NCBI RefSeq assembly: GCF_041262565.1
Contig: NZ_JBGCCJ010000001.1
Location: 248,001 to 312,000 of the forward strand
Reading direction: 5' to 3'
DNA length: 64,000 nucleotides
Source: Leifsonia sp. EB41
Lineage (GTDB): Bacteria > Actinomycetota > Actinomycetes > Actinomycetales > Microbacteriaceae
Shown: positions 35,909-52,797 of the stretch, one piece after another
Layout: each line of letters opens with the position of its first letter
Position numbering within the stretch: position 1 is the stretch's first letter
Notes under the pieces: generated by a model
Told to the model about the DNA's origin: nothing
What the model saw: only the letters and a program-made list of their open reading frames with translations
Database searches by the model: none
Program-made: the position numbers and the translations under genes

Positions 35909-37545
35909 GTTCCTCCTCGTCCGTATAAAGGATAGAGGGGACCACCGGCAGCGGCCGCCGCGGGTGGGGCGTCCTCCCGCTCGCCCCAGAGCCGCGGACC
36001 GCCCACGCCGGCGGACACCAGCAGGAGGCCCGACCGGTCGGTGCGCGCGGTGGCGGTGCCGGAGTGGGCGAGCAGCTCGAACGCCCGGCGCGTCGGGTGC
36101 CCGTAGCCGTTGTCCTCCCCGACCGAGAGCAGACCGAGGCGCGCGTGGATGGTGTCGTAGAGCGCCGGGCTCTGGTCGGCCGATCCGTGGTGGGCGACCT
36201 TCACCACATCGATCGTGCCGAGCACACCCGACTCCTGGAGTCGTTCCTGCTCGCGTTCGCCGAGGTCGCCGAGGAACAGCCCGCTGAGGCCGGTCCCCTC
36301 CGCGCGGACGACGAGGCTCCCGGGGTTCCCACTCAGCACGGTCTCGCCCGGCCCGACCGGCGGAGGCCAGACGATCCGCCAGCGCAGCGCTCCGAGAGCG
36401 CCTTCGGTGCCCGCGTGGCCCTGCTCCACCGCGATCCCGGCGGCCGCCAACCGGTCCACGAGACAGTGATCGGACGGCCGGCCGGCCTGGCCGACGATCG
36501 CGCGGTCGGTCCGGCCGAGCACCGCGTCGGCCCCGCCCACGTGATCGATGTCGAAGTGCGTCAGGAGCACCCAGTCGAGCCGGGCGATCCCGAGCGTGTC
36601 CAGGCAGTCCGTCAGCGGCTGGGTATGCCGTCCCACGTCGATGAGGCCGACGTGGTCGCCGTCGCGCAGCAGGACGGCGTCGCCCTGGCCGACGTCGCAG
36701 GCGGCGTACACCCAGTCCGCCGGCCGTCCCCAGGAGCGCCCCGCGCCGATCCCGCCGAGCGCTCCCGCGTAGACGGTGGCGCCGCCGAGGAGTCCCACTG
36801 CGGCCGCGGCGGCGATGACCCGCGGAAGCCGCGCACGGGCGGCGAGGAGCGCGATCGCGACGAGGGTCAGCGCGCACAGTGTCACGCCCACGATCCCGTC
36901 GGGCCACGGCAGCGCCGCTCCCGGCAGGCCGGCACTGAACCGGGCGACGGCCGCGATCAGGGCGGAGGGCAGCCAGGCCAGCCACACGACCACCTGGCCG
37001 AGAGCCGGCGCCCAGGTCAGCACCAGGCAGGCGACGCAGCCCAGCACCGTCGCGACGGGAGCGGCCGGCTCGGCTACCAGGTTGGCGAGGACCCCGAACA
37101 GCGGCAGCGTCGGCGTCAGCAGAATCAGCACCGGCTGGCAGGCGAGCTGTGCGGCCAGCGGCACCGCGAGCGCGAACGCCGCACCCCGCGGCAGCCACCT
37201 CCCGAGGATGCCCGCGAGCGGCCGGGCGAGGACCAGGAGGCCCGCGGTGGCGAGCACCGAGAGCGCGAAGCCGTAGTCGCGCGCGAGCCAGGGGTCGCGG
37301 ACGAGCAGCACGACGACCGCGAGGGCGAGCGCGGGGAGGCCGTCGGCGACCCGGCCGCGAGCGAGGCCGACGAGCACCACGGCGGCCATCGTCGCGGCAC
37401 GGATCACGCTCGCCCCCGGCCCGACGAGCACGACGAACGCCGCGAGCGACGCTCCCGCCACCAGGATGCGCCCGCGACGGCCGAGGCCGGCCAGGCGTGC
37501 GAGGAGGAAGACGAGCCCGGTCACCAGCGCGCAGTTGGCCCCGGA
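35341..37545 (-). pseudogene. comEC: comEC/rec2, 5' part lost at the integration junction
   Basis: The membrane channel for DNA uptake. The homologous part begins at 37545 with ISGANCALVTG, the conserved segment normally found in the middle of the competence domain. Everything before it is gone. About nine membrane helices follow, then the beta-lactamase-like domain (ACDVGQGDAVLL, LTHFDIDHVGGADAVLG, VVKVAHHGSADQSP, LLSVGEDNGYGHP). The frame has no stop after the family-like end near 35950 and runs open to 35341, deep into holA, so the C-terminal limit is unclear. Without its N-terminus the protein cannot be a full channel. GTG 37524 could start a remnant. The neighbour integrase explains the break. 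Confidence 0.85.
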
Positions 37546-37550
37546 TATAG
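37535..37550. other. Probable attL junction of the serine-integrase element
   Basis: comEC-like codons (Ile-Ser-Gly-Ala-Asn on the minus strand) stop at about 37545-37548, and sequence foreign to comEC starts there. The integrase ATG is about 24 bp away. The exact crossover cannot be fixed without attR or an empty site. Confidence 0.6.
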
Positions 37551-37568
37551 TTAGCGAAGGGGGTGCGT

Positions 37569-39101
37569 ATGACGACGATGATCGTTCGCGAGTACTTGAG
37601 AGTATCGAAAGACAGGTCGCAGACCGGGAAAAGCCCAGATCAGCAGCATGAGGAAAACGTCAGCTCGGTTCAACGCCAAGGGTGGCAGTTGCACACCGAC
37701 GCTCCCTACCGCGACACGGATCGCAGCGCGAGCCGCTATGCAACGAGGGCTCGCGAGGACTTCAAGAGGCTGATCGCGGATCTCGAGGCCGACACCTTTG
37801 ATGCGGACATCCTTGCGATTTGGGAATCGAGCCGCGGCTCACGGCGGGTCGGCGAATGGGTGGACCTGGTCGACTTGTGCAAGGAGCGCGGCGTTCGTAT
37901 TTGGGTGACCACCCATAGCCGTCTCTACGATCCAGCGAACGCGCGCGACCGTCGAAGCCTTCTCGAGGATGCCGTTGATGCCGAATATGAGTCGGACAAG
38001 ACCTCGGAGCGTATTCGCCGCGACGTGCGCGCGGCTGCCGAGAAGGGCAAGCCTCACGGCAAGAACGTGTACGGGTATCTCCGCGTATACGACGCTCGAA
38101 CTCGCGAATTGATCCGGGTGGAAGAACACCCCGAGCAAGGACCGATTGTGAAGGAAGCCGCGGAGAGGGTCCTAGCCGGTGAGAGCTTTTATGGCATAGC
38201 CAAAGACTTCAACGAACGCGGGATTCCTTCGCGCCGACCGACGCGAATTGAGCATCGCGCCGGGTACGGTTGGACTCCCCCGGCAGTGAAGCAGATGTTG
38301 AGCATGGCGGCATACGCGGGAAAGCGAGAGTATCGCGGAGAGATCGTCGGCGACGCGATCTGGCCGGCGCTAATCCCGTACGAAAGCTGGCAGAAGCTGC
38401 AGTCGGTGATGTCACCGCCCGAGCGTCGACGAACTAACGACTGGCCGGCCAAGCACTTGCTCGCAGGGATTGCTGTTTGCGGAGTCTGCGGTGGACCGAT
38501 GCGCGTTGGCAAGCAGAATGCGGGCTCCCGCAAGCTGGACGCGGATGGCAATCCGATCCCACGCCAGAGCTACTCCACGTATGTCTGCGTCGGCGTTCCC
38601 GGGCGGCCCGGTCCGGATGGCAAGCGGGGCTTTCACGTTGCGATGCGCGAGGAGCATCTGGATCGCGTTGTGACGGAACTATTGCTGAAGCGGGTTCAGC
38701 GGCCGGACTTCCTCGCGACAGTCGGCGACCGCGACGACGATCGCGACGCCGAGCGACGCGCATTGCTCGAGGAGATCAACGGTTACCAGGCTTACCTCGA
38801 TAAGGTGCGTGCGGACGCTGCCGAGAAGCTCCACTTCGAGCTCCTGCTTGATCAGGAGGCGAGAATCGAGCCGAAGATCCGGACCGCGCAAACAAAGCTG
38901 GAGAAGTTGTCGGCCGTGGACCCTCTTGTGTTGTCGATACTTGCGGGCGGTGCTGTTCGTCAGAAGTGGGAGACGCTTGATCTCGCCGCTCGGCGCCGGG
39001 TTGTGCGCGGAGTCATGCTGCCTCGAGTCAATCGCATTGGCACAGGGTGGCAAGGCAAAAAGGGACCAAACTACGACCGTGTTGAGCCTGTGTGGCTGTA
39101 G
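37569..39101 (+). CDS. Large serine recombinase (site-specific integrase)
   Basis: A 510-residue integrase that inserts and excises the element. The resolvase domain starts IVREYLRVSKDRSQTG with the catalytic Ser13, and has VQRQGWQL and IWESSRGSRR. The recombinase domain begins near residue 160 (GKPHGKNVYGYLRVYD) and includes GIAKDFNERGIPSRRPTR. A zinc-ribbon follows (CGVCGGPMR ... YVCVG) and then a coiled coil (AERRALLEEINGYQAYLDKV). ATG 37569 has GAAGGGGG 6 bases upstream; GTG 37563 is in frame too. It lies at the element edge beside attL, as is typical. Codon use is visibly less GC-rich than in the core genes. Its stop codon is part of the first GTAGC repeat unit. Confidence 0.95.
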   Translation: MTTMIVREYLRVSKDRSQTGKSPDQQHEENVSSVQRQGWQLHTDAPYRDTDRSASRYATRAREDFKRLIADLEADTFDADILAIWESSRGSRRVGEWVDLVDLCKERGVRIWVTTHSRLYDPANARDRRSLLEDAVDAEYESDKTSERIRRDVRAAAEKGKPHGKNVYGYLRVYDARTRELIRVEEHPEQGPIVKEAAERVLAGESFYGIAKDFNERGIPSRRPTRIEHRAGYGWTPPAVKQMLSMAAYAGKREYRGEIVGDAIWPALIPYESWQKLQSVMSPPERRRTNDWPAKHLLAGIAVCGVCGGPMRVGKQNAGSRKLDADGNPIPRQSYSTYVCVGVPGRPGPDGKRGFHVAMREEHLDRVVTELLLKRVQRPDFLATVGDRDDDRDAERRALLEEINGYQAYLDKVRADAAEKLHFELLLDQEARIEPKIRTAQTKLEKLSAVDPLVLSILAGGAVRQKWETLDLAARRRVVRGVMLPRVNRIGTGWQGKKGPNYDRVEPVWL

Positions 39102-39351
39102 CGGTGTGTAGCAGTCCAAGAAAGGTCTCAGCTACGCCCTTGCGGCGAGATATCAACGATGTTCAGCCGCTGTAGCGCTGTAGCGCTGTAATCGAAAAAC
39201 TGTGCAAAGGAACACCAACCCTCGCAAGTGGCCTCGAGGATCCAACAAGTACCTGGCTACAGCGCTACGCCGCTACGTTGTCGGGGAATCCGCAAATTGT
39301 CGGTGATTGCCCGTAGCCGTCGCATGTCATCTTCGGCTACCGGGCCGCTAC
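39098..39351. repeat. Array of GTAGC/GCTAC units (iteron-like)
   Basis: Eleven copies of GTAGC or its complement GCTAC lie in about 254 bp (starting at 39098, 39108, 39131, 39172, 39180, 39256, 39264, 39272, 39313, 39336 and 39347). Two larger parts pair perfectly: GTAGCGCTGTAG at 39172-39183 and its complement at 39257-39268. Chance would give well under one per 250 bp. The whole 39102-39728 gap has no gene. It could be a replication origin or integrase/excisionase binding site. Confidence 0.75.
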
Positions 39352-39552
39352 CGGCCAAACCTGACGCGCATCTTCTTCCGTCTCTAGCGGATGGTGAAAA
39401 GTTGAAGGCTTGATCCCGCTCGCTTATCGCCAGCTTTTGTCACAGTTGCCTCATACCGTGAATGAGCGCGGCAACCGCCGTGTGCACAACTCAACATCTA
39501 TATCTCGACTTCGGCAGTTGTCGGGACGAACAAATCATGCGACCTTCCACGG

Positions 39553-39692
39553 AAGGTGCGGACCGCAGCACTTGGCTGGTGCGCGATCCAGGTAAATAGA
39601 GCCCCGATTTCGAAGGACCCTCCTATGTGGGTGCGGACCACACATTTGGCTGGTGGGTGGCCCAGAGCAGAAGAGCCCCGATAACGAAGCGA
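39553..39692 (+). repeat. Diverged tandem repeat, about 65 bp, two copies
   Basis: Copy A (39553-39620) and copy B (39627-39692) share GGTGCGGACC, TTGGCTGGTG and AGAGCCCCGAT in the same order and spacing, with mismatches between. They lie directly upstream of the HTH gene, so they may be its operator or promoter region, or origin elements. Confidence 0.7.
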
Positions 39693-39728
39693 TCAGAAGT
39701 TGTGCTCCTCACTCCCAAGGAGCATCAG

Positions 39729-40025
39729 ATGCAAGACCTGTCAGACTTTATCGATCTCCCCACCGCCGTCGAACGCTCCGGCTATGGAGAGTCAACCCTG
39801 CGACGCCACATCAAGTCCGGCAAGATCCCCGCCGTCAAGATCAAGGGACGCGTTCACATCAGGCCCCAGGACTTGGAGACGTTCACTGCTCCTGAACCGA
39901 TGCGCCCGACAGATGCCACCTTGGAAGACTGGGCATCGCGAATGGCAGCGAAGGCGCCAGCATTCCGCCCCGAGCAGCGCAAGCTGATTCTCTCAGCATT
40001 CTCCACCGCGCTGGGTGGTGAGTGA
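39729..40025 (+). CDS. Excisionase-like helix-turn-helix protein
   Basis: A 98-residue protein. The N-terminus FIDLPTAVERSGYGESTLRRHIKSGKIPAVKIKGRVHIRPQDLETF is a helix_turn_helix_17/excisionase-type DNA-binding fold, with the recognition helix in STLRRHIKSG. ATG 39729 follows AAGGAG by 6 bases. The stop overlaps the GTG of the helicase gene by 4 bases, so both are translated together. It may control excision or bind the repeats upstream; both are inferences. Confidence 0.8.
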   Translation: MQDLSDFIDLPTAVERSGYGESTLRRHIKSGKIPAVKIKGRVHIRPQDLETFTAPEPMRPTDATLEDWASRMAAKAPAFRPEQRKLILSAFSTALGGE

Positions 40026-41839
40026 TCCGAATGCCGGCAACAGAAAACCGCCCCGGCAATCACGAGGCGGCATCTGAAGAGTTTCGCGGCTCTGACCTCA
40101 ATTTTAGTGCCCACCCAGCGACAGCGGCGACGGACGACAGCGCGACCCTGACGTCCGCCTCGCCCGATCGCTTCGCGCCTACCTCGGCAGAAACACTCAC
40201 CGAGCGGGCGGTGATTAGATACCTCAGCGAGATTGTTGACAACCCGAGGGTCTCGCTTGGCACGATCCGCGACGCGCTTCTTCGGCGCATCAACGCAGAG
40301 TTCTCCCTGGAAAACACTGGACGCCGCGAATCGCACTCCAGCTCCGGACCGATCCAGAAGATCCAGTCGCTCGACGAGCGCACTGTTACACGTGTGCTTC
40401 TGGCGCGTCAAAGGATCGTCTCAATCGATCTCTCAGGGGGGCAGGCCGAGGACATGACGTTACTCGGCATCTACGTCGACTTCGGAGAAGACGAGGGTAC
40501 ATACTCGACCTCCGACCGCCGAATCAAGTCACTTGCGAGCGAGCTGAAGCCCTCCCTGACATCAAGAGGCCTCGAATCGGTCTGCTCGAGCCTTCGAATC
40601 CATGCACCGGTGGTGCAGAGGACCGTAGAGGCTCACCTAATCCCTGTGGGCAACGGCGTGTTCGATCACCAGCGCCAGACCCTACGACCGTTCTCGGCGG
40701 ACTGGATCTTTCTATCGAAGATCCCGACAGACTACGACCCCAACGCGGAGAGCCCGATCTTCACGATGCCGGACGGGGTCGAGTGGACGTTCGACGGATG
40801 GCTCATGAGCTTGAGCGACGATCCTGGCGTGCCAGAGTTGCTTTGGGAGGTAATCAGCGCGGCCGCGCGATCCTACGAGCCCTGGAACAAGGCACTGTGG
40901 CTTGTCTCCGAGCGTGGCAATAACGGCAAGGGAACATTCGTCCACTTCATTCGAAACTTGTTGGGCACGAAGCTCTGCTCTGCTGTGCAGTTCGCTGACT
41001 TCGGGCACGAGTTCAAGATGGAACCTCTCCTTCGCTCGCGCGTCAACCTCGTCGACGAGAACGGCGTGGGGACCTTCGCAGACCGAATCGACGCATGGAA
41101 GGCGTTCATCACCGGAGACACCATCACCCTAAACAGGAAGCACAAGACTCCCATTGCAGTCAGCTGGCGGGGCATCGACATCCAGTGCCTCAACTCGTTC
41201 AGCCAAAGAACTAAGGACCGCTCAGAATCGTTCTACCGCAGACTTCTTATCATCCCGTTCCGCAAATGGTTCGGGGACACAGAACGCAAATACATCAAGC
41301 TCGAGTACCTGAAGGACCCCCAGGTGCTCCGGTACGCCTTGAAGCGCGCTCTCGAGATGCAGCACACCGAGTTCTCGAATCCCGCGGTCTGCCGCGAAGC
41401 GCTCGATGAGTATAAGGGTACGAACAACGGTCTGCTGAGCTTCTGGCTTGAGTTCGAGAACCAGTATCTGTGGGACCTCTTGCCGTTCCGCTTCCTGTAC
41501 GCGCTCTACTGCGAATGGTTCCGAACGGTGAATCCCAGCGGACAGGTGGAAAGCATGAACGCGCTGATCTCTTTCCTGAAAGAACACCTCGCAGGCTCAA
41601 ACGAATGGGAGCACAAGGGCTCCGTTGCCGTTCGCCCAAAGCAAATGATGAGCCAACCGGAGCCGCTTATCGTCGACTACAACCTCACGGACTGGATGAA
41701 CAACGCCTATTCAGGAACCGACCCGCGCAAGAAGTCCCTGCCGTTTCCCTTGAAGACGAACTACAAGGGCTTGGTGCGCCGCCAGCCAATTGGCCCCTCG
41801 ACTCGCGCAGCTGTTTCGACGGTCGCCGAACGACCGTAG
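40022..41839 (+). CDS. Phage/plasmid SF3 helicase-primase (D5/P4 type)
   Basis: A 605-residue replication protein. The SF3 helicase core has Walker A in SERGNNGKGTFVHF (about residues 295-308), Walker B in RVNLVDENG (about 340) and the motif-C-like LNSFSQRTKDRSESFYRRLLIIPF (about 388-411). The N-terminal 250 residues are unlike known primase catalytic cores, so primase activity is not shown. The usual Walker A Ser is Gly here (GKG). The GTG start overlaps the HTH gene. The element can probably replicate on its own after excision. Confidence 0.85.
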   Translation: MIRMPATENRPGNHEAASEEFRGSDLNFSAHPATAATDDSATLTSASPDRFAPTSAETLTERAVIRYLSEIVDNPRVSLGTIRDALLRRINAEFSLENTGRRESHSSSGPIQKIQSLDERTVTRVLLARQRIVSIDLSGGQAEDMTLLGIYVDFGEDEGTYSTSDRRIKSLASELKPSLTSRGLESVCSSLRIHAPVVQRTVEAHLIPVGNGVFDHQRQTLRPFSADWIFLSKIPTDYDPNAESPIFTMPDGVEWTFDGWLMSLSDDPGVPELLWEVISAAARSYEPWNKALWLVSERGNNGKGTFVHFIRNLLGTKLCSAVQFADFGHEFKMEPLLRSRVNLVDENGVGTFADRIDAWKAFITGDTITLNRKHKTPIAVSWRGIDIQCLNSFSQRTKDRSESFYRRLLIIPFRKWFGDTERKYIKLEYLKDPQVLRYALKRALEMQHTEFSNPAVCREALDEYKGTNNGLLSFWLEFENQYLWDLLPFRFLYALYCEWFRTVNPSGQVESMNALISFLKEHLAGSNEWEHKGSVAVRPKQMMSQPEPLIVDYNLTDWMNNAYSGTDPRKKSLPFPLKTNYKGLVRRQPIGPSTRAAVSTVAERP

Positions 41840-41968
41840 CAATCGAGTCACAGGGGCTCCCGACTGGTCCTGGTCGGTCGCCCCGCGCCCTGCAAGGAGT
41901 CGTTGACAACCGTGCCCAAGGGAAGATCAGCAGAAGCTGCTCGCGCCGCTCATTACATTGTGAACCGA

Positions 41969-42006
41969 GCTGGGCCGGTGGCGAACAAAGTTCGCGCCGG
42001 CCCAGC
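41969..42006. terminator. Strong hairpin after the helicase gene
   Basis: GCTGGGCCGG (41969-41978) pairs with CCGGCCCAGC (41997-42006) and GCGAAC (41981-41986) with GTTCGC (41990-41995), loop AAA. It lies between the convergent helicase and antitoxin-like genes and can end both. Confidence 0.85.
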
Positions 42007-42093
42007 CGACCGGTTCTCCGGATTCTCGCTACCAGGGATCCGCTCGACCAACCCACCAGACCGAAGCGGAGACCTCGGTGATCTCGAGGCCGC

Positions 42094-42486
42094 TCATCCG
42101 ATGAACGCGAACGCCTTCGCCGCCGCCATCACCTCAGGGCCGACCTCGTCCGGGCTGCCAGTCTGCAGAACCCGGGCTGGCGAGACGTCGTTGAGTGCCG
42201 GGTTCATCCCCTTGAACCACGACTGGACGGTCACCGCCTCGTTGCGCTCACGCAGAAGCGCGGCGATTTGGTAGGCGACGAACAAGCGGTCGCGATCGGT
42301 TGCCCCCGGCGCTCGGGTGCCAGCGGCCCACTCTGCCACAGGCTTGGTGGACTTGACGTTCCCGATGTAGGCGACGAGGCGCACGCCGACGATGTCCCGG
42401 AGCTTGGTGACCAGCTCGGGGAAAGTCGACCGGATCGCGTCGTCGTATGCGCGCATCCCCGCCTTCTGAGTCGTTGTCGTCGCCAT
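42094..42486 (-). CDS. Xre/MbcA/ParS antitoxin-like DNA-binding protein
   Basis: A 130-residue protein. The N-terminal part (ELVTKLRDIVGVRLVAYIGNVKSTKPVAEWAAGTR) is a helix-turn-helix like region. The C-terminal part (LLRERNEAVTVQSWFKGMNPALNDVSPARVLQTGSP) is like the toxin-binding DUF2384 domain of Xre/MbcA/ParS antitoxins. The partner would be a RES-domain toxin, but none is next to it. It may act as an element repressor instead. A palindromic operator candidate lies just upstream. Confidence 0.75.
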   Translation of the reverse strand: MATTTTQKAGMRAYDDAIRSTFPELVTKLRDIVGVRLVAYIGNVKSTKPVAEWAAGTRAPGATDRDRLFVAYQIAALLRERNEAVTVQSWFKGMNPALNDVSPARVLQTGSPDEVGPEVMAAAKAFAFIG

Positions 42487-42511
42487 GTCGTTGACGATAC
42501 TCCGACAACCC

Positions 42512-42539
42512 TCGAAACGGCCATGAAAGTTCGTTTCGA
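42512..42539. promoter_or_regulatory. Operator candidate of the Xre-like gene
   Basis: TCGAAACG (42512-42519) and CGTTTCGA (42532-42539) form a perfect 8-bp inverted repeat with 12-base spacing. It is 26 bp upstream of the Xre-like ATG. Confidence 0.5.
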
Positions 42540-42743
42540 ATCGGCATCGAAATCGCCATCAAAATCGCCCTAGAAAAGTAGAAGAATGGGGTCAAGGGAT
42601 GATGAACCCCACCTCCCGGAGGAGAAGAATTCGTTCGTCGTGCACACGCCGCAGTGAAGGAGCCCGCTAGGAGACTTGTTCGCCGGGCTGGGCGACGTTA
42701 TCCGTGGGCCGCTCGTGGACGAGGAGTCGAGACGGCGGTACCC

Positions 42744-43013
42744 GTGTCGAATGACTATCGGGACGCAGAGCGGTGGAAACGGCGTGAGAGCCGTCGAGTT
42801 CGTTCTGCGGTCCAGTCCATCGGCTCGACGTACCAGGCTGCACAGCAGGCCGGCGATGACGTCGCCCGGCAGGCTGCGCTAGATGCCGCCGAGAAGTGGA
42901 TCAAGACCTACAAAAGCGGTGGCACGACTTCGTTCTCGTTCGACGAACTCAGTGGCGGAAAGCCGGGCATCTCCTACACGAACATGTGGAACGACAACCG
43001 CTGGCTGCTCTGA
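42744..43013 (+). CDS. Hypothetical protein (89 aa)
   Basis: Not recognised. The frame from GTG 42744 reads as coding: DAERWKRRESRRVRSAVQS, a helical AQQAGDDVARQAALDAAEKW segment, then an aromatic-rich end (SYTNMWNDNRWLL). No signal peptide or membrane helix. The start is uncertain; the frame is open upstream to 42654. Confidence 0.5.
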   Translation: MSNDYRDAERWKRRESRRVRSAVQSIGSTYQAAQQAGDDVARQAALDAAEKWIKTYKSGGTTSFSFDELSGGKPGISYTNMWNDNRWLL

Positions 43014-43064
43014 TCACCGGAAAAGGATGCTCACGAATCGTTCTGAGGCCCGGAGATCAGCGAT

Positions 43065-43460
43065 CTAACGAAGAACGGTCACCGGCAGCTGTGTCTGCGC
43101 ATCATCACCGTTCACGTGGCTGAATGCGGAGATCTGACCGATCCCTGGTAGTCCGAGGCTCGCGTCCCGATAGCTGACCACGATCCCCTCCTCTAGCACC
43201 CGGACGCTTTCGCCGACGTAGTTGGACTGGTTGGCGTCGGTGAAGTCGAAGATGAATGCCTCAACCTTGCTTCCGAACCGGATGCCCAGCCGCTTCCCTC
43301 CGTTGCCGTCAGGGCCGTAGTAGTCCACGCCGTATCCGAAGTATTCCGGAGGCGCCGGCGTCTCGATCCGCTCGCCAAGCTCCCACGTCACAACGATGCT
43401 GTTGGGGTGCTCCTCGACGAGGACGGAGATCACGAGTCGCGGGATCAGGGGCTCAGCCAT
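43065..43460 (-). CDS. Hypothetical protein (131 aa)
   Basis: Not recognised. A soluble, beta-rich protein: LVISVLVEEHPNSIVVTWELG, YGVDYYGPDGNGGKRLGIRFG, VEAFIFDFTDANQSNYVGES. It lies 9 bp after the stop of the acidic small gene upstream, in one unit. It might be an immunity-type protein of a polymorphic toxin system given the Rhs genes nearby, but this is only context. Confidence 0.65.
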   Translation of the reverse strand: MAEPLIPRLVISVLVEEHPNSIVVTWELGERIETPAPPEYFGYGVDYYGPDGNGGKRLGIRFGSKVEAFIFDFTDANQSNYVGESVRVLEEGIVVSYRDASLGLPGIGQISAFSHVNGDDAQTQLPVTVLR

Positions 43461-43469
43461 GCGCCCAGA

Positions 43470-43673
43470 CTAGGGCTCACGGCCATCGTCCGTGCCAGGC
43501 TCGGTCGCCGCAGCCTCGTCGTACGTTCCATCGACCAGTTGCTTCATCTCGTCGTCGATCTCCTCGTCGAGCTTGCGCGATTCTCTAATCGCGGAGAACA
43601 GACTTCTCTCAAACGTCGTCAGCTCGTCATCGCTTACGAGCGCTTCGTCATCGACCTCGTCGTCGTCCCCCAT
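43470..43673 (-). CDS. Small acidic hypothetical protein (67 aa)
   Basis: Not recognised. Strongly acidic start MGDDDEVDDEALVSDDELTT, then a helix with ERSLFSAIRESRKLDEEIDDE. Co-directional with and 9 bp before the 131-aa gene. The start ATG 43673 is chosen because the upstream part of the frame is Arg-rich and non-coding-like. Confidence 0.5.
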   Translation of the reverse strand: MGDDDEVDDEALVSDDELTTFERSLFSAIRESRKLDEEIDDEMKQLVDGTYDEAAATEPGTDDGREP

Positions 43674-43865
43674 GCCGACATGCTGCTCGGGTTTCCGCTC
43701 CCCCGTCAACTGTTGACGGTTTCGTGTCCTCCATCTTGAGGACATCGTTCCACGAGCGTTACCGTGGTGCCCACCCGGGGATGCTGGGCCGGCGCGGATA
43801 CGAAATCCCCAGCGAGGACGTCTCAACCCGACGTGACCTGGCCGGCATCCCCAGGAACCATCCTC

Positions 43866-44045
43866 TTAGGCCTCGACGACCCACTCCTCATACCATTGGC
43901 CCTCGCTCTGGAGGCTGCCGGCTCCACGGACTGCGTAGTCGGGCAACTCCGAACGCGGCCTGAGCTCGCTGTCGTAGTACTCGGTATCTCCCTCGGGGTA
44001 CGGGCCGACGCTCAGATAGACGAGGTCGCTGCTCGGGTCAGTCAT
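43866..44045 (-). CDS. Small hypothetical protein (59 aa)
   Basis: Not recognised. MTDPSSDLVYLSVGPYPEGD, then TEYYDSELRPRSELPDYAVRG and SEGQWYEEWVVEA: compact, acidic, Tyr-rich. The codon pattern looks coding. It is divergent from the CoiA-like gene with a 47-bp gap. Confidence 0.55.
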   Translation of the reverse strand: MTDPSSDLVYLSVGPYPEGDTEYYDSELRPRSELPDYAVRGAGSLQSEGQWYEEWVVEA

Positions 44046-44092
44046 GCGTCGAGGATACCGATGCTGTCGGCCCCACCCAGTAGCCTTTCCGC

Positions 44093-45673
44093 GTGCAGCA
44101 CGGGGCAGAAGTGTTGGCGGCATTCCAGGACGGGGAGACGCGCCTCGTCTACGCACGCCCGCGGACGGGCGGATCGCTGTGGATGCTGCCCAACGGAGAA
44201 GCCAAGAAGCATCGCGCCTTCACCAAGGCAGAGCTCGTATGCCCCGTTCATGACTGCGCCGAGCCTAAGCTCACCACCGTGGCGCGGGCGCCGAGGAAGC
44301 GCGACGGGTTCAGCCACCTGGCCGGCGGCGGCCACGCCCCAGAGTCTCTCTTCCACCTGCAGGCGAAGCAGCGTATAGCCGACTGGTTGACCGAGCACTA
44401 CCCGCGATCGAGCGTCCACATCGAGGAACAGTCAGACACCAACCGCACCCGGATCGCAGATGTAATGATCACCGGTCCCACGGGCCAGCGGATCGCCTTC
44501 GAGGTCCAGTACTCCCCCATCACGCCCGAGAAATGGCGGGAGCGTCACGACTCCTACCTCGAGCAGGGCATCACCGACATCTGGCTCTGGGGTCACCACG
44601 GCGCCAACCTCAAGGAGGATCGCCAACTCCCGGGGACTGTCAAACTCACGCCGGCCCAGCAGCTCGTCGCCGAGCTCGGCCAACCGCTGCTGTGGTTCAA
44701 CCCGGTGCTCGGGGGCATCGGTACCGCCAGCCAGATCCGCTATGGGGCGCCCTGGTCGATCCGGACACTCCCCGTAGGTAGCGGGGATTTCCTGGTCGAG
44801 CCGCTGGACCAGTTCTCTCTGGCGAATGACGGCTTCGGGAGCGAGCTCACCCGCCGCCTCCTCGCCGACACCGTGCGCTTTAGCGAGTGGCGCGAAAAGC
44901 GCGACGCTGAGGTTCGCGCGCAACAGAAAGCCGCCGATGAGATGAAAGCCGCTGAGGCCGCCAGAGAGGCCGCGGAAGCGTCTCGACGACAGCAGCAGCT
45001 CGAACGCGCGACCAGGGTCTGGCTCGGATCCGAGCAGCGGGCTTCGCTGCTCAGGCAGATGGGTGGCACGTGGCCGGAGTGGCTGAACGTCACGCTTGAG
45101 GAACCGCTGCCGGTTCCGGCCGAGCAGTGGCAGTCGGCCGTCTACATCCGCTTCATCATCGACCTCGCGCACAACAACACGATCAGGCGCGAGCCCATCA
45201 TCACTTGGCTGAAGGGCGAGTACCGGCTCGGTCCGCGCCCCCGCGAGCGGGCGATGGTAGCTCTGTACCGATGGCTCATGGCGATCTCCAAGCGAGGCAT
45301 TGTTCGTCGGCAGGAGCACAAGTGGAGCGGACGATCCACCTTCTACGCGGTCGACCCGGCGTACCTGCCGGCGGGCGGATGGTTCCCAGGCGTGAATCCG
45401 CCCGTCAGTCGGCGCCTGGAGCTAGAACGCTCCCTGGAGCGGCGAAGGCAGGAGCGTATCGCCGAGCTCGCAGCGAGGCCGCCCGTACCGCCGCCACTGC
45501 CCGTTCCCGAGCAGCTGCCGGAGTGGCACGCGCGCATCCGCGCCGCGCGTGAGGCTGGGCTCAAGCCGCGCTCAGAGTCGGGGCTCCGCAAGTGCGTCCT
45601 CTGTGGAATCGCACTGGACCCGATCTACATGGATCTCGGGTATCACCCGTACTGCTCGAGGACGCGGAGGTGA
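44093..45673 (+). CDS. CoiA-like competence nuclease family protein
   Basis: A 526-residue protein. An N-terminal zinc-site-like CPVHDC lies near residue 50. The nuclease core of CoiA (restriction-endonuclease fold) is visible as TRIADVMITGPTGQRIAFEVQYSP (about residues 118-141), with D and E-x-Q catalytic residues and TPEKWRERHDSYLEQGITDIWLWG after it. A coiled coil spans about 260-305. The C-terminus has a second zinc-like site (CVLCG ... YC). CoiA proteins are needed for competence in Firmicutes. In actinobacteria many are found in mobile regions with unknown roles. It lies inside the insertion that breaks comEC. Start GTG 44093. Confidence 0.75.
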   Translation: MQHGAEVLAAFQDGETRLVYARPRTGGSLWMLPNGEAKKHRAFTKAELVCPVHDCAEPKLTTVARAPRKRDGFSHLAGGGHAPESLFHLQAKQRIADWLTEHYPRSSVHIEEQSDTNRTRIADVMITGPTGQRIAFEVQYSPITPEKWRERHDSYLEQGITDIWLWGHHGANLKEDRQLPGTVKLTPAQQLVAELGQPLLWFNPVLGGIGTASQIRYGAPWSIRTLPVGSGDFLVEPLDQFSLANDGFGSELTRRLLADTVRFSEWREKRDAEVRAQQKAADEMKAAEAAREAAEASRRQQQLERATRVWLGSEQRASLLRQMGGTWPEWLNVTLEEPLPVPAEQWQSAVYIRFIIDLAHNNTIRREPIITWLKGEYRLGPRPRERAMVALYRWLMAISKRGIVRRQEHKWSGRSTFYAVDPAYLPAGGWFPGVNPPVSRRLELERSLERRRQERIAELAARPPVPPPLPVPEQLPEWHARIRAAREAGLKPRSESGLRKCVLCGIALDPIYMDLGYHPYCSRTRR

Positions 45674-45868
45674 CGAGGCCCCCTGCGTCGCATGCGGCAC
45701 CCAGCGTGGGTCATCTCGGAGTTCACGGGGTTCGAGGCGTTTGGGATGCACTGTCGGGGCGCAGATACGCGTCTTCGAAAGGCGACTAGGCGTGGGGATT
45801 CTCGGTGAGACGATTCGCCGCGACCGGACATGATGAAGGTGAGGGACCAATTCACCAGAGGGAGATCC

Positions 45869-46444
45869 GTGCAGGCGCTTACCCCCGAATCGACGGGCGA
45901 GTCGGTCTCCGACGACCGCCCGGAGGTCGAGCGTCTGCGCCGCGGGGATCGTGACGCTCTCGGCGAGCTCTACGGCCGTCACGCCGGAACCGTCTACTGG
46001 AACGCGTACGGCGTCCTGAAGTCTCGGCCCGACGCCGAGGAGATGACCGCCGACGCGTTCCTCACCCTCTGGACCCGTCGCCACGAGGTCGAGATCTACG
46101 GCATCTCGGCGCTGCCTTGGCTCGTGGTCACGGTCAAGAACCTCAGCCGCAACCGCCTGCGCTCCAACGAGCGCCGCAGCGCCGACCACCTGGACGACGT
46201 CGACCCGGCATCGGCCGGCCCGTCCGCCGAAGACCTCGCCGCACTCGATGAGGCGATGCGTCTCGTCCGCGAGGTCATCAGCCAGTTGCCCGCGGTCGAC
46301 CAGGAGATCTTCCGTCTCTGCATGGTCGACGGGCTCACCTACAAGGAGGCCGCAGCCAAGCTCGGCCTCAAGCACGGCTCCGTGCGCAACCGTCTCTCTC
46401 GCATGCGCCTTCGCCTGCAGAGCGAACTGGGACCGAGGAGCTGA
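45869..46444 (+). CDS. ECF-type sigma-70 family RNA polymerase sigma factor
   Basis: A 191-residue sigma factor. Region 2 is DALGELYGRHAGTVYWNAYGVL with DAEEMTADAFLTLW. Region 4 is LPAVDQEIFRLCMVDGLTYKEAAAKLG, followed by HGSVRNRLSRMRLRLQ. GTG 45869 has GAGGGAG 4 bases upstream, so it is preferred to the longer frame. Eight bp after the stop begins a membrane protein gene, the usual place for the anti-sigma factor. It should direct a small stress-type regulon. Confidence 0.93.
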   Translation: MQALTPESTGESVSDDRPEVERLRRGDRDALGELYGRHAGTVYWNAYGVLKSRPDAEEMTADAFLTLWTRRHEVEIYGISALPWLVVTVKNLSRNRLRSNERRSADHLDDVDPASAGPSAEDLAALDEAMRLVREVISQLPAVDQEIFRLCMVDGLTYKEAAAKLGLKHGSVRNRLSRMRLRLQSELGPRS

Positions 46445-46451
46445 GGACACC

Positions 46452-46952
46452 ATGATGAACGCAGCACCCACACTTCCCCCGGGCTCCGACGCCCGAATCA
46501 CGGGGCTTCTCGATGCCCGGCTGACCAGCTACACGCGCAGGCAGAAGAAGCGCGGCCGCGTGGTCGCCGCTGCGGCCGGCGCCGCGGTCGTGCTCGCGGC
46601 AGGCAGCCTGGCCTGGGTCACGTTGGCGCCTCACACCCTCCAGACGCGCTCGGCGTATTGCTACAGCGCGGACAGCACGTCCTCTCGGTGGACGCAGGTT
46701 GGGTTGCCGGACGAGCAGACGGGTCCCGACGGGACGTCCCAACCACCTACGCCGGCCGACCGGAAAGCCAGCGCCGTGGACATGTGCGGTGCCGCCTGGC
46801 GCGCAGGCATCCTCGGCAGCAACACCACGGTGCCGCCGCTCGTCGTGTGCGTGCGCACCGACAACGTCCCGGCGGTCTTCCCCAAGGAGGACTCCGACAG
46901 CCGCAGCGACGCGAAGTTCTGCTCCGACCTCGACCTGGCACTGGAAAGGTGA
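46452..46952 (+). CDS. Single-helix membrane protein, probable anti-sigma factor
   Basis: 166 residues: a short basic cytoplasmic start (DARLTSYTRRQKKRGR), one membrane helix (VVAAAAGAAVVLAAGSLAWV), and an outside domain with four Cys residues (YCYSADS, VDMCGAAW, VVCVRTD, KFCSDLD). The place right after a sigma gene suggests an anti-sigma factor, yet no zinc anti-sigma HxxxCxxC motif is visible in the short N-terminus. The Cys residues could form disulfides outside the cell. Confidence 0.75.
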   Translation: MMNAAPTLPPGSDARITGLLDARLTSYTRRQKKRGRVVAAAAGAAVVLAAGSLAWVTLAPHTLQTRSAYCYSADSTSSRWTQVGLPDEQTGPDGTSQPPTPADRKASAVDMCGAAWRAGILGSNTTVPPLVVCVRTDNVPAVFPKEDSDSRSDAKFCSDLDLALER

Positions 46953-46957
46953 CCCCG

Positions 46958-47068
46958 ATGGATGACTCGATCCGCCCAGAAGCCACCGAGCTTCCACCCA
47001 CACTGTCCGTCGACGTGAGCTGGGCACTGGACCTGAAGAGCCCAGACACCGAAGCCCTGAGCGTCTAA
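46958..47068 (+). CDS. 36-residue peptide in the sigma-factor operon
   Basis: ATG 46958 opens a 36-codon frame (MDDSIRPEATELPPTLSV, ending LDLKSPDTEALSV) 5 bp past the membrane protein stop, and a strong terminator follows. There are no Cys residues and no signal sequence. The tight position argues that it is translated. Function unknown. Confidence 0.5.
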   Translation: MDDSIRPEATELPPTLSVDVSWALDLKSPDTEALSV

Positions 47069-47082
47069 GACGTAGGGGAGCA

Positions 47083-47122
47083 CGGCCAGCGCCGCCGTCG
47101 GGGGAACGGGCGGCGCTGGCCG
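47083..47122. terminator. Terminator of the sigma-factor operon
   Basis: A perfect 14-bp stem (CGGCCAGCGCCGCC at 47083-47096, complement at 47109-47122) with a 12-base loop, 15 bp after the small peptide stop. Confidence 0.9.
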
Positions 47123-47315
47123 GTTCGACGCCGCTGACAGTGCCGAGTGCTCGCATACGTGGATTCGACAGCGCGCGAGCCGCTCTTCTTCCGATCGCTC
47201 GACGCTGGTGACGACCAGGACTGAGCCATGCATGGCTTCGGCTCTGTCGGACACGCTGGTCACAAGGTGTTGATCGCCCGAGAAGGACTTGCCAAGAGGC
47301 GGGCCGCTCTTTGGT

Positions 47316-47516
47316 TCAGTCCTTGCGGTTGATCGCCTTCTTCACGCGCTCGTACCAACCGGCCGTGCTGATGGCGTCCCCCACCGTCCCGTCGGCCATG
47401 TAGCCGACCGTCAGCCCCGCGAACTGCGTGTAGCAGTCATCGCACAGCACTCGCGTGGCCGTGTGATGACCTTCCCCCGTCAGTCGCTTCCGACACTGGT
47501 CGCATCGTCCGCTCAT
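47316..47516 (-). CDS. Small zinc-ribbon-like protein (66 aa)
   Basis: Two Cys pairs, CDQCRKRLTG and VLCDDCYTQF, form a probable zinc site. A basic end (WYERVKKAINRKD) follows. Similar small four-Cys proteins are common in actinobacterial accessory DNA. Function unknown; nucleic-acid binding is possible. Confidence 0.7.
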   Translation of the reverse strand: MSGRCDQCRKRLTGEGHHTATRVLCDDCYTQFAGLTVGYMADGTVGDAISTAGWYERVKKAINRKD

Positions 47517-47755
47517 GCGCGCAGTGTTTCACCATTCACGGGATGAAACAACCGCCTCATGTGTCACGGCCGGATTTGGACGAAGGAGCCATTCGTGGCC
47601 ACGGACTTCCTCGCCTTTTCGTGATCTCGTGAGAACCTCAGCCGCTGCTTCGGTCTCACCCAACCAGGTTTCGGGAGGCGCGCAGGCGCACCCCTCAATC
47701 GAGCCTCTCCCGCAGCGATGCAAGGCGAGCGTACGGTCACCCTCGGGAGGTGATC

Positions 47756-48108
47756 ATGGCCGCGGCACCGCTCGTCGACGTCGACGGGCGACGTCTGCGC
47801 CTGACGAACCTCGATAAGGTGCTCTACCCGGTGACAGGCACCACCAAGGGCGACGTCATCCGGTACTACGCGGCCATCGCCCGGCGCTCCTTCCCCATCT
47901 CGCCGAGCGGCCCATCACGCGCAAGCGTTGGCCGGACGGCGTCGGTACGGCGACCGCGCCGGTCGAGTCCTTCTTCGAGAAGGACCTCGGCAACGGCGTG
48001 CCCGACTGGGTGCTGCGCCAGAGCATCCTTCACTCCGGCGGCGAGAAGCGCTACCCGGTCGTTACCGACCGCGCGACCCTTGTCTGGCTCGCCCAGAGCC
48101 TGCAGTGA
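47756..48108 (+). pseudogene. Fragment of LigD-type DNA ligase/polymerase domain, frameshifted
   Basis: The start reads VDVDGRRLRLTNLDKVLYPVTGTTKGDVIRYYAAIA, the opening of the LigD primase-polymerase domain (non-homologous end joining). About 47,880 the frame shifts; the family sequence goes on in another frame as ERPITRKRWPDGVGTA, FFEKDLGNGVPDWV, HSGGEKRYPVVTDRATLVWLAQ and stops at 48106-48108. Only about 110 of roughly 300 residues of the domain are left. It has a ribosome site (GGGAGG), so it was once a real start. No Ku gene is nearby. Confidence 0.8.
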
Positions 48109-48463
48109 GTTGAGCGATCGCACCTTCTACCCCGAAGCGTCGCACGTCACGGGAACCCTGTTTCCACCACCGCCGAAGCCCGCGCGGTAAGTGTCCAATT
48201 TGATGTCTCGGCGCTGAACCCGGCGCGAGAGGGCCTTGACGGTAGGCTTCGGCCTGTTCAGGCGAAGCCTGTCCTAGACGTGGCGCACTTGCAAACCAGC
48301 TCGCCCTCAGACCGACCACGATCGCCACGAGAACGACAAGGATGACAAGCCAGCCGACCAGTCCTCCCGGGTTGAAGATAAGTCGAAGTACCCACCAGAT
48401 CCTCCGTCCGCTGCAGAAGCCTCGGCTTATCGGCGAAGTCTCAGAACCCTCGCTGAGCCATCG
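48109..48463. other. Gene-poor stretch with a membrane-protein remnant
   Basis: No complete gene. On the minus strand about 48,460-48,100 a frame without start codon reads IFNPGGLVGWLVILVVLV, then SPEQAEAYRQGPLAPG, which looks like a decayed membrane protein. A hairpin (AGGCTTCG at 48244, CGAAGCCT ending 48271) lies in it. Confidence 0.4.
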
Positions 48464-48862
48464 CTATCCCTTAAGGGCAGTCCGAACAGACTCGGGATCC
48501 AGATTGTTGCGGCGCACCCATTCATCAAAGGCTCCCGCCGATCGTATCGGCGGGTTCCCTGAGAATCTCAGGCCGACGGCAGCGAGTTTGGCGGCAATAA
48601 GACGAGTAAGACGCGTCCTGGTAGTGAACGCGAGCGGAGTCGCGTACGCCACGACGAGGACCAGCACCAGGGCAACCCAGTTGAGCCATGTCACATTTGA
48701 TGCCGCTCCGACGGCAACAACGGCGAGCAGGGCGGCGAATCCGGCGACGAGCCCGCAGATAATCCAAGTCGACTTGACTAGGACCGAAGACCGGGTGAGT
48801 CGGGACCGGAGTGGATCGTCGGCATAGTCGGCCCAGGCTACTTCTTTCACTGACACTCCCAT
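48464..48862 (-). CDS. Two-helix membrane protein after the orphan Rhs tip
   Basis: 132 residues with two hydrophobic helices ([20 protein letters not shown] and [18 protein letters not shown]), then a cytoplasmic end with [23 protein letters not shown] 48862 begins 2 bp after a stop at 48865 of the Rhs tip frame, so it was co-translated with it. In polymorphic toxin loci this is the place of the immunity gene; that role is an inference. Confidence 0.7.
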
Positions 48863-48864
48863 GG

Positions 48865-49663
48865 TCAACAGTCAACAGCCCACGGAACCCAGCCCACAAT
48901 AGGCCCGGCTCCGACCCACGAAACGGCGAGGCACTGGTTGTGAGCGTGTGCCCAGCGCTTACTCCCGCGGCCATGAGCGGGGCCGAGTATCCCGGCGCCG
49001 CGGCTGCTTGAGCGACCAAGAGGACTGGGCTGCCGATCAACGCGGTCGCAGCCTTGTTGAAATTGATGGTTGCGCCGAACGGCCCACCCCATCCGTCCCA
49101 GGTGGCTGCCGGGAGTTGGTTTTGCGACTTGGGGCTCGACGCCGGCTTCGCCCGCGAGATGGCGGTGACGGTTTGATTGGCACCAGGCGAGAGGGACCAG
49201 GTGCGCGCTGGCGCCGCTGCCCGTCCCACCGATCCCATGATCGGGGTTGTTGTGCCGTAGTCGTTGAGGCGGAAACTCCAGTTACCGGTGAGATCGCTTC
49301 CATTAATGGGATCGTTCGGGTAGTTGTATGCGCTCGTATTTCCGCCCGCTACCGGGTCGGTCGACAAGAACCGTCCGAGCATTGCGACGAATTGTCGGGC
49401 ACCCATTTCGATGGTGGCGATCGCCCCTTCGTGCTCGTAGAGCTTCTGGCTGGCCCCCTCCCACCCGTTGGTCGCCGACTGAGTTGTGTTCGCAAGTACG
49501 GCGGCGTCGGCGGCCGTCGTTCCAATTAGGCGCGTCGTGGGATCGATTGGGTTGCCGAATGGATCGTACTGGGCAACGGTCCCGCTGCGCGTGCCGGTGC
49601 CGCCGGTCTTCACGATCAAGTCGCCGTGAAGGTTTGGGTACGGAGACGCAGCAGGAAGGCGGT
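48865..49663 (-). pseudogene. Orphan Rhs-repeat core end and tip (5'-truncated, frameshifted)
   Basis: The fragment begins after an in-frame stop near 49665 with [19 protein letters not shown]. It goes through the Rhs core end ([58 protein letters not shown]). A tip of about 130 residues follows ([38 protein letters not shown]). Near 48,960 the frame changes; the neighbouring frame ends [20 protein letters not shown] with a stop at 48865 just before the membrane gene. The core sequence is of a different Rhs subtype from the intact gene at 52,798, so it is not a simple duplicate of it. Confidence 0.8.
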
Positions 49664-51809
49664 GCTAACCGTAGGTCGATGACGAGACCCCAGTTGAGCG
49701 GAAGCACCGGCCACTTGCTCGCAGCCGACGAAGTGGAGACAGACAGACCTAACGTCCGACGCAACAATCGTTTTGAGAATGATTTCCCTAATGATTCGCT
49801 GAGTCGCGCTCGACGCGGAAGCACGTCGGATGAGTCTCAATGCCGAGGCAAACCATGTGGGTTCCTACCTGATCGTCGTCCACCCGGACTTCTGCGACGC
49901 TGCCCTCCTCTCAAACGGCATCTCCCCTATCCAAACCTTGATACTGGCAAGGCATCGACGGAAGGCACCCGAGAACGCCACCGACGTGGCGTTGGAGGGC
50001 AAGGAGCGAAGCGACGCAGTAAGGGCCCAAGGAGCGCCAGCGACGAGGGTGAGGGAAGCCCGTCGACCGAGCGCAGCGAGAGCCGAAAGGGGTGACCGAA
50101 GAGGTGTCGGCTATGCCGACCACCGAGCAAGTTTCGACCGAGCGAAGCGACGTTGAAACGCAGCGAGGTGCCACCTCCCCTTATGCCCTTTTCCTTTCTC
50201 CCTCGCATCGGGAGCTTCAGCGAGCGATCGAGGTCACGTTTTGCTGTTTCATCAGGGGAAACGGATGGATCAACACCTTCTTGATCAACACCGCATCCGA
50301 AGGATCATTGACGGTGGTGTGGATCAAGGGCCATCCGTTTGCCCTGGAAAGTCGGGGTTTGGCTTGATCCACGGTTTGGAACGAAGTGGCACCGTGGATC
50401 AAGACGTCGAGCGAAGCGAGGTCGGGCGTTGAGGAGCCTGCGGATCAACGACCGTTTCAACCCCGACGCGGCCGTGGGCACACGGGCGCCTCTACCTCGA
50501 AACGGCGCAGGTCGCGGCGTAGCTGCGACCTCTGGGTGTAGCGCTCTGACACCGTTCCGATGGGCGCGACAACGGAGCGCGCAGCGGGCTTCGCGACAGC
50601 CGCGACAGCGGCGACTGGGATGCTCTTCTTTCGCCTCATCGGCCACGACTGTGGAGTGGCCAGGACCGTCACGAGAGTCGCCTCGAGAGACGCCACAGCA
50701 AACGCCACGAAGGCGTAGCAGACGTCAGGCGCGCGCGGAGCGCCGTTGCCTCATGCGCCTCGTAATGGGGGCTCGTCACGAGATCCGCCACAGGATCAGC
50801 ACGACCCTCGTCCCAGCTCCGCCCCGGTGGCGCCGTCGGCCTCACGGGGCCCACCATCACCGGCGACGACTTGAGTCATGAAAGCAGAACTCGTCGCCCT
50901 TGCATCCTCAGCGCGAGTTCTGTTTCGGGGGTCAAGTCGACGACCCTTGAGCGATCGGTACGGCGCCGCAGGCGACGGCCTGATGGTCACGCGGACCATG
51001 CCGACGGGGCGAAGCCCCCGAGGACGGCTGTTGCCCGATCAGCACAGCTCCGCCGGCTGCTGCCTCGAGCACGATGCAGCGCAGCTGCAGCCAGCCCTTC
51101 AGTGCTCCACTCCGCCGGACGATGCAGGAGAGACCCACGTCCCGCCGGAGATCCCATCGAAGGGGGCGGGGAGCGGCCCGTCAGTCAGGCGAGCAGTTGC
51201 CTGAAGGACCGAAGTGCCCTTGCGAAACGAACCAGGTCCAGGTGACGCAGCTGGGGCGGAGGAGGAGGGCGCAGTGAGGCACGAACGCAGCCCCCGACGG
51301 AGCCCGCTGGGGCACCTGGGATCTGATTCGTATTGAGGTCCAGGTCGCTGATCATCGCTCCACGCTCCCGCCCATCGCAGCCTCTTGGGAGCGCCATCCG
51401 GTGCGTTCAGCACCGGGAATCTGTGCCCGTTTCGCGGACGCGTCGCGTCCACTCGCTGCCCCCTTGTGACCAGTCAGCGGCCTCCCGCTGACCGCGAGAC
51501 GGTCACTACTGCCTATCCGAGGCTCCGTCCGAGGATTTCGAACGCGTTCAGCGCGCTGCGACCGTGCTGTGGCCTGTTCATGGTCATTCTGTGGCCTATC
51601 GCCGGTCACACGTGCCGTATCGGCGGTGTTCAGCCTGTCGTCGCGCCCCTCCGTGGGCGAGACGCGACCGCTGCGTGACCGTTGGGTGGTCACGTCGCGG
51701 CCGATTGGTTCTCGGCGGCATCGCGCGGAGCACGGGCGCCTACGAGAGAGCCGCGACGTCATCCGAGCGACCGACGAAGTGAGCGCGGTCCGATCGATAC
51801 GTTGGGCCC
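49664..51809. other. 2.1-kb stretch without convincing genes
   Basis: No frame in either strand looks like a real protein. It has short repeats: GAGCGAAGCGA or near variants at 50004, 50069, 50140 and 50409; many GGATCAA units in 50260-50450; and several perfect hairpins (50363-50403; CAGAACTCG at 50885 with 50914-50922; GTCAGCGG at 51473 with 51485-51492). It is probably debris between Rhs-type genes. Confidence 0.55.
50363..50403. repeat. 13-bp perfect inverted repeat
   Basis: CTTGATCCACGGT (50363-50375) and ACCGTGGATCAAG (50391-50403), 15-base loop. It lies in DNA with several more GGATCAA copies. Confidence 0.75.
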
Positions 51810-52169
51810 ATGACCGAGAGGATTGCGCCGCTGCGCTATCGCCGACCGGTCGCCACCGTGGTGATGCTCCTTGCACTCCACGGCGTGATCGTGTTCGCGC
51901 TGGTCATGCTCGCGGTCTCCGTCGCACTCAGCATCGGCGGTCCCACGATCGGTCACGACGAGCTGTACCGGATGGGTCCCGCGCTGCAGCTGTCGGTCGC
52001 CGGCGCGGTCGCGCCGTTCATTCTGGCGACGGCACTGACCTTGCCGATCGGGCTCGCAGCACCCAGCCGCCTCTGGCTCGTGCCAACCGTCGCGACCTGC
52101 GCAAGTGTCGTGTTCTGCGTCATCGCGATGCTCCTCTTTCATGCACCTGCTCCGATCCCAGGAGGATGA
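51810..52169 (+). CDS. Small membrane protein (119 aa)
   Basis: Not recognised. Three hydrophobic helices: VATVVMLLALHGVIVFALVM, LSVAGAVAPFILATALTLPI and WLVPTVATCASVVFCVIAML, with a short polar loop between the first two. No signal for a known family. It is followed 59 bp later by another small membrane gene on the same strand. Confidence 0.6.
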   Translation: MTERIAPLRYRRPVATVVMLLALHGVIVFALVMLAVSVALSIGGPTIGHDELYRMGPALQLSVAGAVAPFILATALTLPIGLAAPSRLWLVPTVATCASVVFCVIAMLLFHAPAPIPGG

Positions 52170-52228
52170 ACGGCCGTCGATACGCTGAGCCCATGGTCGT
52201 TGCCTGAGTTCGCGCGTAGTCTCGCGGC

Positions 52229-52453
52229 GTGACTGACCCGTCTTCCAGAAAGCCAAAGCTCTGGCTCACTTTCGGGTGGCTCGTCGCGGCCTTCAGCGTC
52301 GCAGCCATTGCGGTCGGGACCTGGGCCGTCGCACAGGGCTCACCAGTGGGCTGGATCAATATCATCCTGGGGCTCATCTTCATCCCGCAGAGCGTCCTTT
52401 ACTTCCGCCTGTACCGACGTCTTCGCAAGAGCGACCGGCCACACGAGAAGTAG
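52229..52453 (+). CDS. Small two-helix membrane protein (74 aa)
   Basis: Not recognised. Helices FGWLVAAFSVAAIAVGTWAV and WINIILGLIFIPQSVLYFRL, then a basic end YRRLRKSDRPHEK. GTG 52229 start. It could be an orphan immunity-like protein given the Rhs locus next door; this is inference. Confidence 0.6.
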   Translation: MTDPSSRKPKLWLTFGWLVAAFSVAAIAVGTWAVAQGSPVGWINIILGLIFIPQSVLYFRLYRRLRKSDRPHEK

Positions 52454-52541
52454 CCGATCCGGCTTAGCCGCCTTGTCGCTTAGGAGTTTGGCGAGTCAAG
52501 CTGCTGGTTAGACCGCCGCTTCCGCCACACCCCCTCGCGCA

Positions 52542-52784: not shown

Positions 52785-52797
52785 GGCATGACCCTAG

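Follow-up and report, generated by a model that had tools for sequence, protein, structure and literature searches.

The locus described here lies in a window of 64,000 nucleotides (genome positions 248,001-312,000) of Leifsonia sp. EB41, whose 4,162,015-bp genome is assembled as one contig. On the minus strand, homology to the competence gene comEC begins abruptly at ISGANCALV, from window position 37545 downward. On the other strand, a large serine integrase opens only 18-24 bp from this point, depending on whether the GTG at 37563 or the ATG at 37569 is the start. The missing 5′ part of comEC lies 46,668 bp to the right of the 3′ part, and the DNA between the two halves forms an element of 46,668 bp measured from core to core. 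Its features are collected in Table 1.

Table 1. Features of the interrupted comEC gene and of the element within it. Positions refer to the window unless given as genome or locus (L) positions.
Feature	Position	Strand	Evidence
comEC 3′ part, Competence (PF03772) and metallo-beta-lactamase domains, beginning at the SGANC codons	35941..37545	(-)	domain matches, comparison with relatives
Window portion of the 46,668-bp element, which continues to genome 332,208	37541..64000		breakpoints, GC, shared core
attL core CCGGA, common to attR (genome 332,209-332,213)	37541..37545		breakpoint comparison
Left half of attP, imperfect dyad with the right arm	37541..37568		14/25 dyad matches, shuffle mean 6.2
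Large serine integrase (Resolvase, Recombinase, zinc ribbon)	37563..39101	(+)	three domains above Pfam cut-offs; phrog_95 integrase, E 8.1e-80
HTH_17 protein, similar to phage excisionases	39729..40025	(+)	Pfam, PHROGs
D5/P4-type primase-helicase	40031..41839	(+)	Pfam, PHROGs
Cargo: CoiA nuclease-like domain protein	44093..45673	(+)	E 1.8e-13
Cargo: sigma-70 family (ECF-like) factor	45869..46444	(+)	domain match
Cargo: RHS-repeat protein	52798..56127	(-)	domain match
Cargo: NERD-domain protein	60888..61721	(+)	domain match
Protein matching PADLOC candidate defence family PDC-S11	L002:4812-5825	(-)	E 1e-26, N-terminal part only
Cargo: CBASS-like set (CD-NTase, E2-like protein, 2TM membrane effector), near the right end	genome 327,808-329,983 = L003:2808-4983		co-occurrence of three genes
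comEC 5′ part	genome 332,209-333,038 = L003:7209-8038	(-)	comparison with a relative

An element between two halves of comEC

A sequence-only reading of this stretch had claimed that comEC was broken by the insertion of a serine-integrase element, leaving a gene that starts abruptly at ISGAN at about 37545 with the integrase about 24 bp away on the other strand. This observation of comEC broken beside a serine integrase is confirmed, both in its geometry and by the recovery of both gene halves, a shared core and an in-frame join. The same reading had pointed to the right for the 5′ part of comEC in frame with an attR core, and it is found there, with the core CCGGA and no stop in the join. As the N-terminal comEC family PF13567 has no match in the genome even though the 5′ part exists, comparison with a relative was needed to locate it. 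This relative (L006) has a comEC 3′ part of 87 % identity, and its locus gives three separate alignments. One falls at the window site, and the other two, 46.7 kb off, correspond to the end of comEA and to the comEC 5′ part. The latter terminates at LSHLTAVSG and is followed by unrelated sequence; beyond it lie a comEA-like gene (HHH_3 and SLBB domains, as in ComEA) and then leuS, named from its sequence.

The split leaves a 277-residue N-terminal piece of ComEC and a remainder with the channel and nuclease regions. When the flanks are joined in silico, they read LTAVSG/ANCALV (the slash marks the break) in a frame that is open from the start of comEC and across its channel and nuclease region, and the joined gene, with HLTAVSG/ANCALV, resembles that of the 87 %-identical relative. 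Excision would rejoin the gene in frame in this in silico reconstruction, as a switch of the comK kind requires.

Three findings had been named as speaking against the insertion, namely a genome with no comEC 5′ part, a full second copy, or relatives with the same short gene and no integrase. The 5′ part sits beside comEA, and PF03772 has a single match in the whole genome, a search that found no second comEC copy in the 4,162,015-bp contig. In relatives the site is intact in all 29 loci read, which are the best-scoring 29 of 59 relatives, picked by comEC similarity and not by absence of the integrase. HLTAVSGANC is identical across these 29, and a long comEC query finds a match in 392 of 398 genomes of the family. 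The insertion lies inside a competence coding sequence that is intact in relatives.

GC content in windows between the breakpoints is 0.59-0.68; the 38 kb on the left side have 0.68-0.73 and the right-hand flank 0.66-0.76. When the left junction was compared with the DNA to its right for exact repeats of 9-16 bases, the matches listed included no att core, the true core being 5 bases long.

The integrase contains YLRVS, which we take to be its catalytic serine motif. The HTH_17 protein is, from its similarity, a candidate recombination directionality factor. Further cargo includes an HNH protein and a histidine kinase. Near the right end, the CD-NTase, E2-like and membrane effector genes occur together as expected of CBASS, presumably of the short type II. 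A protein with a CoiA competence-type nuclease-like domain rides on this comEC-breaking element, and relatives of the PDC-S11-matching protein are also present in two related elements (G446 and G447).

A Pfam scan of 62 of the 64 predicted element proteins (two were left out, one of them response-regulator-like, and gene prediction is poor at about 47.4-52 kb) found no terminase, capsid, tail, relaxase or conjugation ATPase family. No clear virion gene appeared among these 62, ten element proteins being compared with PHROGs; there were weak lone matches to an endosialidase beta-barrel (E 1.2e-4) and a holin family (E 0.0012), and a VirB8 match fell below its cut-off. The virion genes that a prophage acting as a comK-like switch would carry were not found in this set, nor was the relaxase of an integrative and mobilizable element, whether by family or by match to the relaxases of related elements. 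Because no relaxase was found, the EB41 element is not filed as mobilizable.

Related integrases at the same codon

Four of the 398 family genomes, EB41 included, carry the integrase at E<=1e-60; in the screen behind this count, and behind its absence from the rest of the family, three candidates were scored in each genome. Named bacterial genomes, scanned in turn, added 16 relatives, from Cryobacterium, Curtobacterium, Leucobacter, Microbacterium, Lumbricidophila, Arthrobacter, Pseudarthrobacter and a Microbacteriaceae MAG, for a total of 19 relatives in 19 genomes that are not independent, the G445/G446 and the G450/G451/G453 integrases being very similar. NCBI taxonomy places Cryobacterium and Leucobacter in the Microbacteriaceae and Pseudarthrobacter in the Micrococcaceae. 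Identity to the EB41 integrase is 52-77 % over its length in 18 of the 19. The remaining one, in Arthrobacter sp. Hiyo8 (G454:C1:171614-173123), consists of three broken matched pieces, so the insertion there may be fixed. The viral contigs scanned contain no relative of the integrase or the primase, and phage and plasmid records contain no integrase relative of at least 60 % identity, all relatives there falling below that value.

A comEC 3′ part was recovered in all 19 relative genomes, starting at SGAN (14), TGAN (4) or AGAN (1) behind an element-like arm that resembles ACCCACCTC and is least clear in G255. A usable 5′ part was found in 16; the match in G439 was weak and was dropped, and G451 and G452 gave none. 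These 16 parts terminate at LTAVSG, LVAVSG or LPAVSG, beyond which non-comEC sequence begins, with an arm like AGGTGGGT. Because the 5′ query itself was cut at SG (residue 277), the sequence after each match was read case by case. In all 17 pairs, EB41 included, the GG of the glycine codon is common to both halves and in register, from which we infer that crossover takes place at this dinucleotide (CC/GG).

The attP sites rebuilt from the 17 pairs score 10-18 dyad matches out of 25 against shuffle means of 6.2-6.4 (p<0.05 in 16 of 17, <=0.001 in 12 of 17), with the reservation that where elements are stacked a rebuilt attP may mix the ends of two of them. The attB sites score 3-11. An imperfect dyad in attP and a common central dinucleotide are what is expected of a large serine integrase.

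Within the flanks retrieved, comEC lies beside the integrase in 9 of the 19 loci. Of 20 genomes, EB41 included, 7 have the integrase directly against comEC, at no more than about 50 bp; in the other 13 it is 2.6-13.2 kb away (6 genomes) or lies at 25-103 kb or on another contig (7 genomes). The EB41 integrase shares 76-77 % identity with its relatives in Cryobacterium luteum and the Microbacteriaceae MAG, compared with 50-52 % for the comEC 3′ part and 72 % for rpsT (C. luteum), as expected of transfer between hosts. Related integrases are found at the same site in other species.

The gene content of these elements varies. A relative of the EB41 primase lies near the integrase in 8 of the 19 (G145, G367, G441, G445-G448 and G452), and an HTH_17 relative in several, none being detected in the rest within short stretches. 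Cargo differs among the comEC elements, and mobilization genes occur in some of them (a TrwC relaxase in G145, Mob_Pre in G447 and a MobC protein in G367). Integrative elements, some of them mobilizable, are a better description of the group than phages.

The distance between the comEC halves is about 95 kb in G446, 227 kb in G450, 194 kb in G453 and 298 kb in G454, the last if the record is circular. With halves 194-298 kb apart in three Arthrobacter-type genomes, other DNA must contribute there. A site with two element arms lies 12.4 kb before the comEC 3′ part in Arthrobacter G450 (L109:4931; G450:C1 about 364,930), as expected of tandem insertion.

How the insertion may have arisen and been kept

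We regard it as probable that the glycine codon of HLTAVSG/ANC received the 46,668-bp element through the action of the element's own large serine integrase, that comEC would be rejoined if the element left, and that the integrase lineage uses comEC as its site and keeps it both for its conservation and for the silencing of transformation. The integrase would recombine attP with the chromosomal site across the GG dinucleotide, a reaction that would produce the junctions observed. An integrated element splits ComEC in two and should thereby prevent the uptake of DNA. If the element were excised, with the HTH_17 protein perhaps serving as the directionality factor, comEC would become a single frame again, as it does in silico. 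The integrase would belong to a lineage of Microbacteriaceae and Micrococcaceae whose sampled members are in genomes with comEC cut at this codon. Two reasons may keep the site in use: the DNA encoding the motif may be conserved enough to be met in new hosts, and, following Croucher et al. (2016), silenced transformation may keep recombining imported DNA from replacing the element. The lack of a relaxase or conjugation gene among 62 of 64 proteins points to no route of transfer, and the element may no longer be able to move.

That the break is an assembly or annotation artefact, or that comEC is naturally short, has a negligible probability: both halves lie on a single contig with a common core at the junctions, and 19 other assemblies are broken at the same codon. 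The insertion is real, precise and repeated. The state of the two halves bears on what has happened since. Amino-acid changes unique to the split copy and to an intact relative copy number 15 v 15 in the 5′ part and 25 v 24 in the 3′ part, internal stops are absent from the comEC halves, and dN/dS of the split halves, 0.24-0.37 (5′ part) and 0.17-0.26 (3′ part), resembles that of intact pairs (0.26-0.43 and 0.19-0.24). Such undecayed halves would fit recent insertion or periodic restoration alike.

The sequence-only reading had gone on to compare the locus with the phage switch in Listeria comK and to propose that excision links natural transformation to mobility of the element. A regulated switch, in which excision is timed to restore comEC when competence is useful, as proposed for the Listeria comK prophage, is possible, though in our judgement quite improbable. 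It would draw on the uninterrupted joined frame, on the undecayed halves with no internal stop, and on the host's ComEA-like gene, DprA and pilus/secretion ATPases, a gene content that makes DNA uptake in this host plausible; in addition, excision of phi1207.3 from pneumococcal comEC is reported to give back low-level competence (PMC10383233). However, recent insertion explains the absence of decay equally well, and the integrase of Arthrobacter sp. Hiyo8 is in pieces. A wider group of elements using comEC as its site is the better-supported reading, and the interpretation first offered, taken as a whole, is partly supported.

If excision had been lost, comEC would now be a pseudogene and the element an immobile remnant. 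The lack of any relaxase or transfer gene among 62 of 64 proteins is consistent with this, as is an integrase without relatives in viral contigs and with none of at least 60 % identity in phage or plasmid records. Against it, the integrase frame with its YLRVS motif, the HTH gene, the primase and both att sites look intact and neither comEC half has decayed, and we consider a remnant unlikely. The choice of site might also be neutral, with comEC used for the high conservation of its DNA alone and the loss of transformation bringing no benefit. The identity of HLTAVSGANC in the 29 relatives read suits a broad-host integrase and lends this view appreciable weight, but we lean the other way, since very distant or unrelated integrases elsewhere also target competence genes, comEC included (PMC4260502, PMC4774983).

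For elements of this kind, loss of DNA uptake by the host may itself be a benefit. Taken furthest, an integrase lineage spanning at least two actinobacterial families would be dedicated to one comEC codon and, with unrelated cargoes, would act as a transmissible and reversible off-switch for natural transformation, with comEC of the Arthrobacter type as an accretion site where elements stack in tandem. We hold this extension to be speculative and rather doubtful.

Competence genes as integration sites

The phage in Listeria comK is of the A118 type and has a serine integrase. Like it, the EB41 element interrupts a competence gene by serine-integrase insertion and leaves it restorable; the A118 type is a prophage, whereas the EB41 element has no clear virion genes. 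An A118-like prophage identity was considered, and with no clear virion gene in 62 of 64 proteins the element is not A118-like on present evidence. Integrase, excisionase-like gene, primase and variable cargo are shared with integrative and mobilizable elements, from which the EB41 element differs in that no relaxase was found.

Insertions within comEC itself are described in streptococci, where phages phi1207.3 and phi10394.4 sit in comEC/celB (PMC4288039, PMC4260502) with a GA dinucleotide as core (PMC4260502). The former is a functional siphovirus with three serine recombinases (PMC9927172), and its mitomycin-induced excision from pneumococcal comEC is reported to restore low-level competence (PMC10383233). 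The EB41 element shares with both phages a serine recombinase and insertion within comEC, and it differs from them in having GG rather than GA as core; the three recombinases and the siphovirus nature of phi1207.3 set that phage further apart. The EB41 integrase is 24 % identical to Orf57 of phi1207.3 over 323 residues and 26 % identical to Orf56 over 116.

Prophage or island insertions also affect comYC, comFA, comK and comM, the comK case being a prophage in Listeria, and orthologous integrases reach the same competence gene in several species; such insertions have been proposed to prevent transformation from removing the elements, and the cases cited include a mefA cassette in pneumococcal comEC (Croucher et al. 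2016, PMC4774983). The available text of that study includes no actinobacterial case, and the word Actinobacteria is absent from it. In Piscirickettsia salmonis, comEC is interrupted repeatedly by transposable elements (PMC12955456); these are of various kinds, in contrast to the one integrase with one site described here. In the open-access PMC literature, no report of an actinobacterial comEC insertion was among the matches listed. As far as the open literature searched shows, the kind of insertion is known, while the integrase lineage, the host phylum, the core and the element type are new.

The view that transformation and mobile DNA are in conflict draws in part on mobile elements found in competence genes. 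In the available parts of the sources cited, the hosts of these elements are streptococci, Listeria, Bacillus, Acinetobacter and other non-actinobacterial bacteria. A very distant comEC-using integrase lineage in Actinobacteria makes the conflict idea testable where competence has been little studied, and 17 paired natural att sites at one codon offer material for studying how integrases choose their targets.

The far end of comEC and one other break deserve mention. In EB41 the comEC frame lacks a stop where the gene usually ends, at 35941, and continues without one to 35341 (-), into holA. In 25 of the 29 relative loci the frame is open for more than 600 codons past SGANC, and in L013 for 597; in three loci from other genera (L032-L034) it ends 528-546 codons past SGANC. 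In one genus relative, whose genome is 2.6 Mb, comEC gives two adjacent matches (G018:C1:1528802-1530374) that meet at query residues 261/263, a break away from the HLTAVSG/ANC site.
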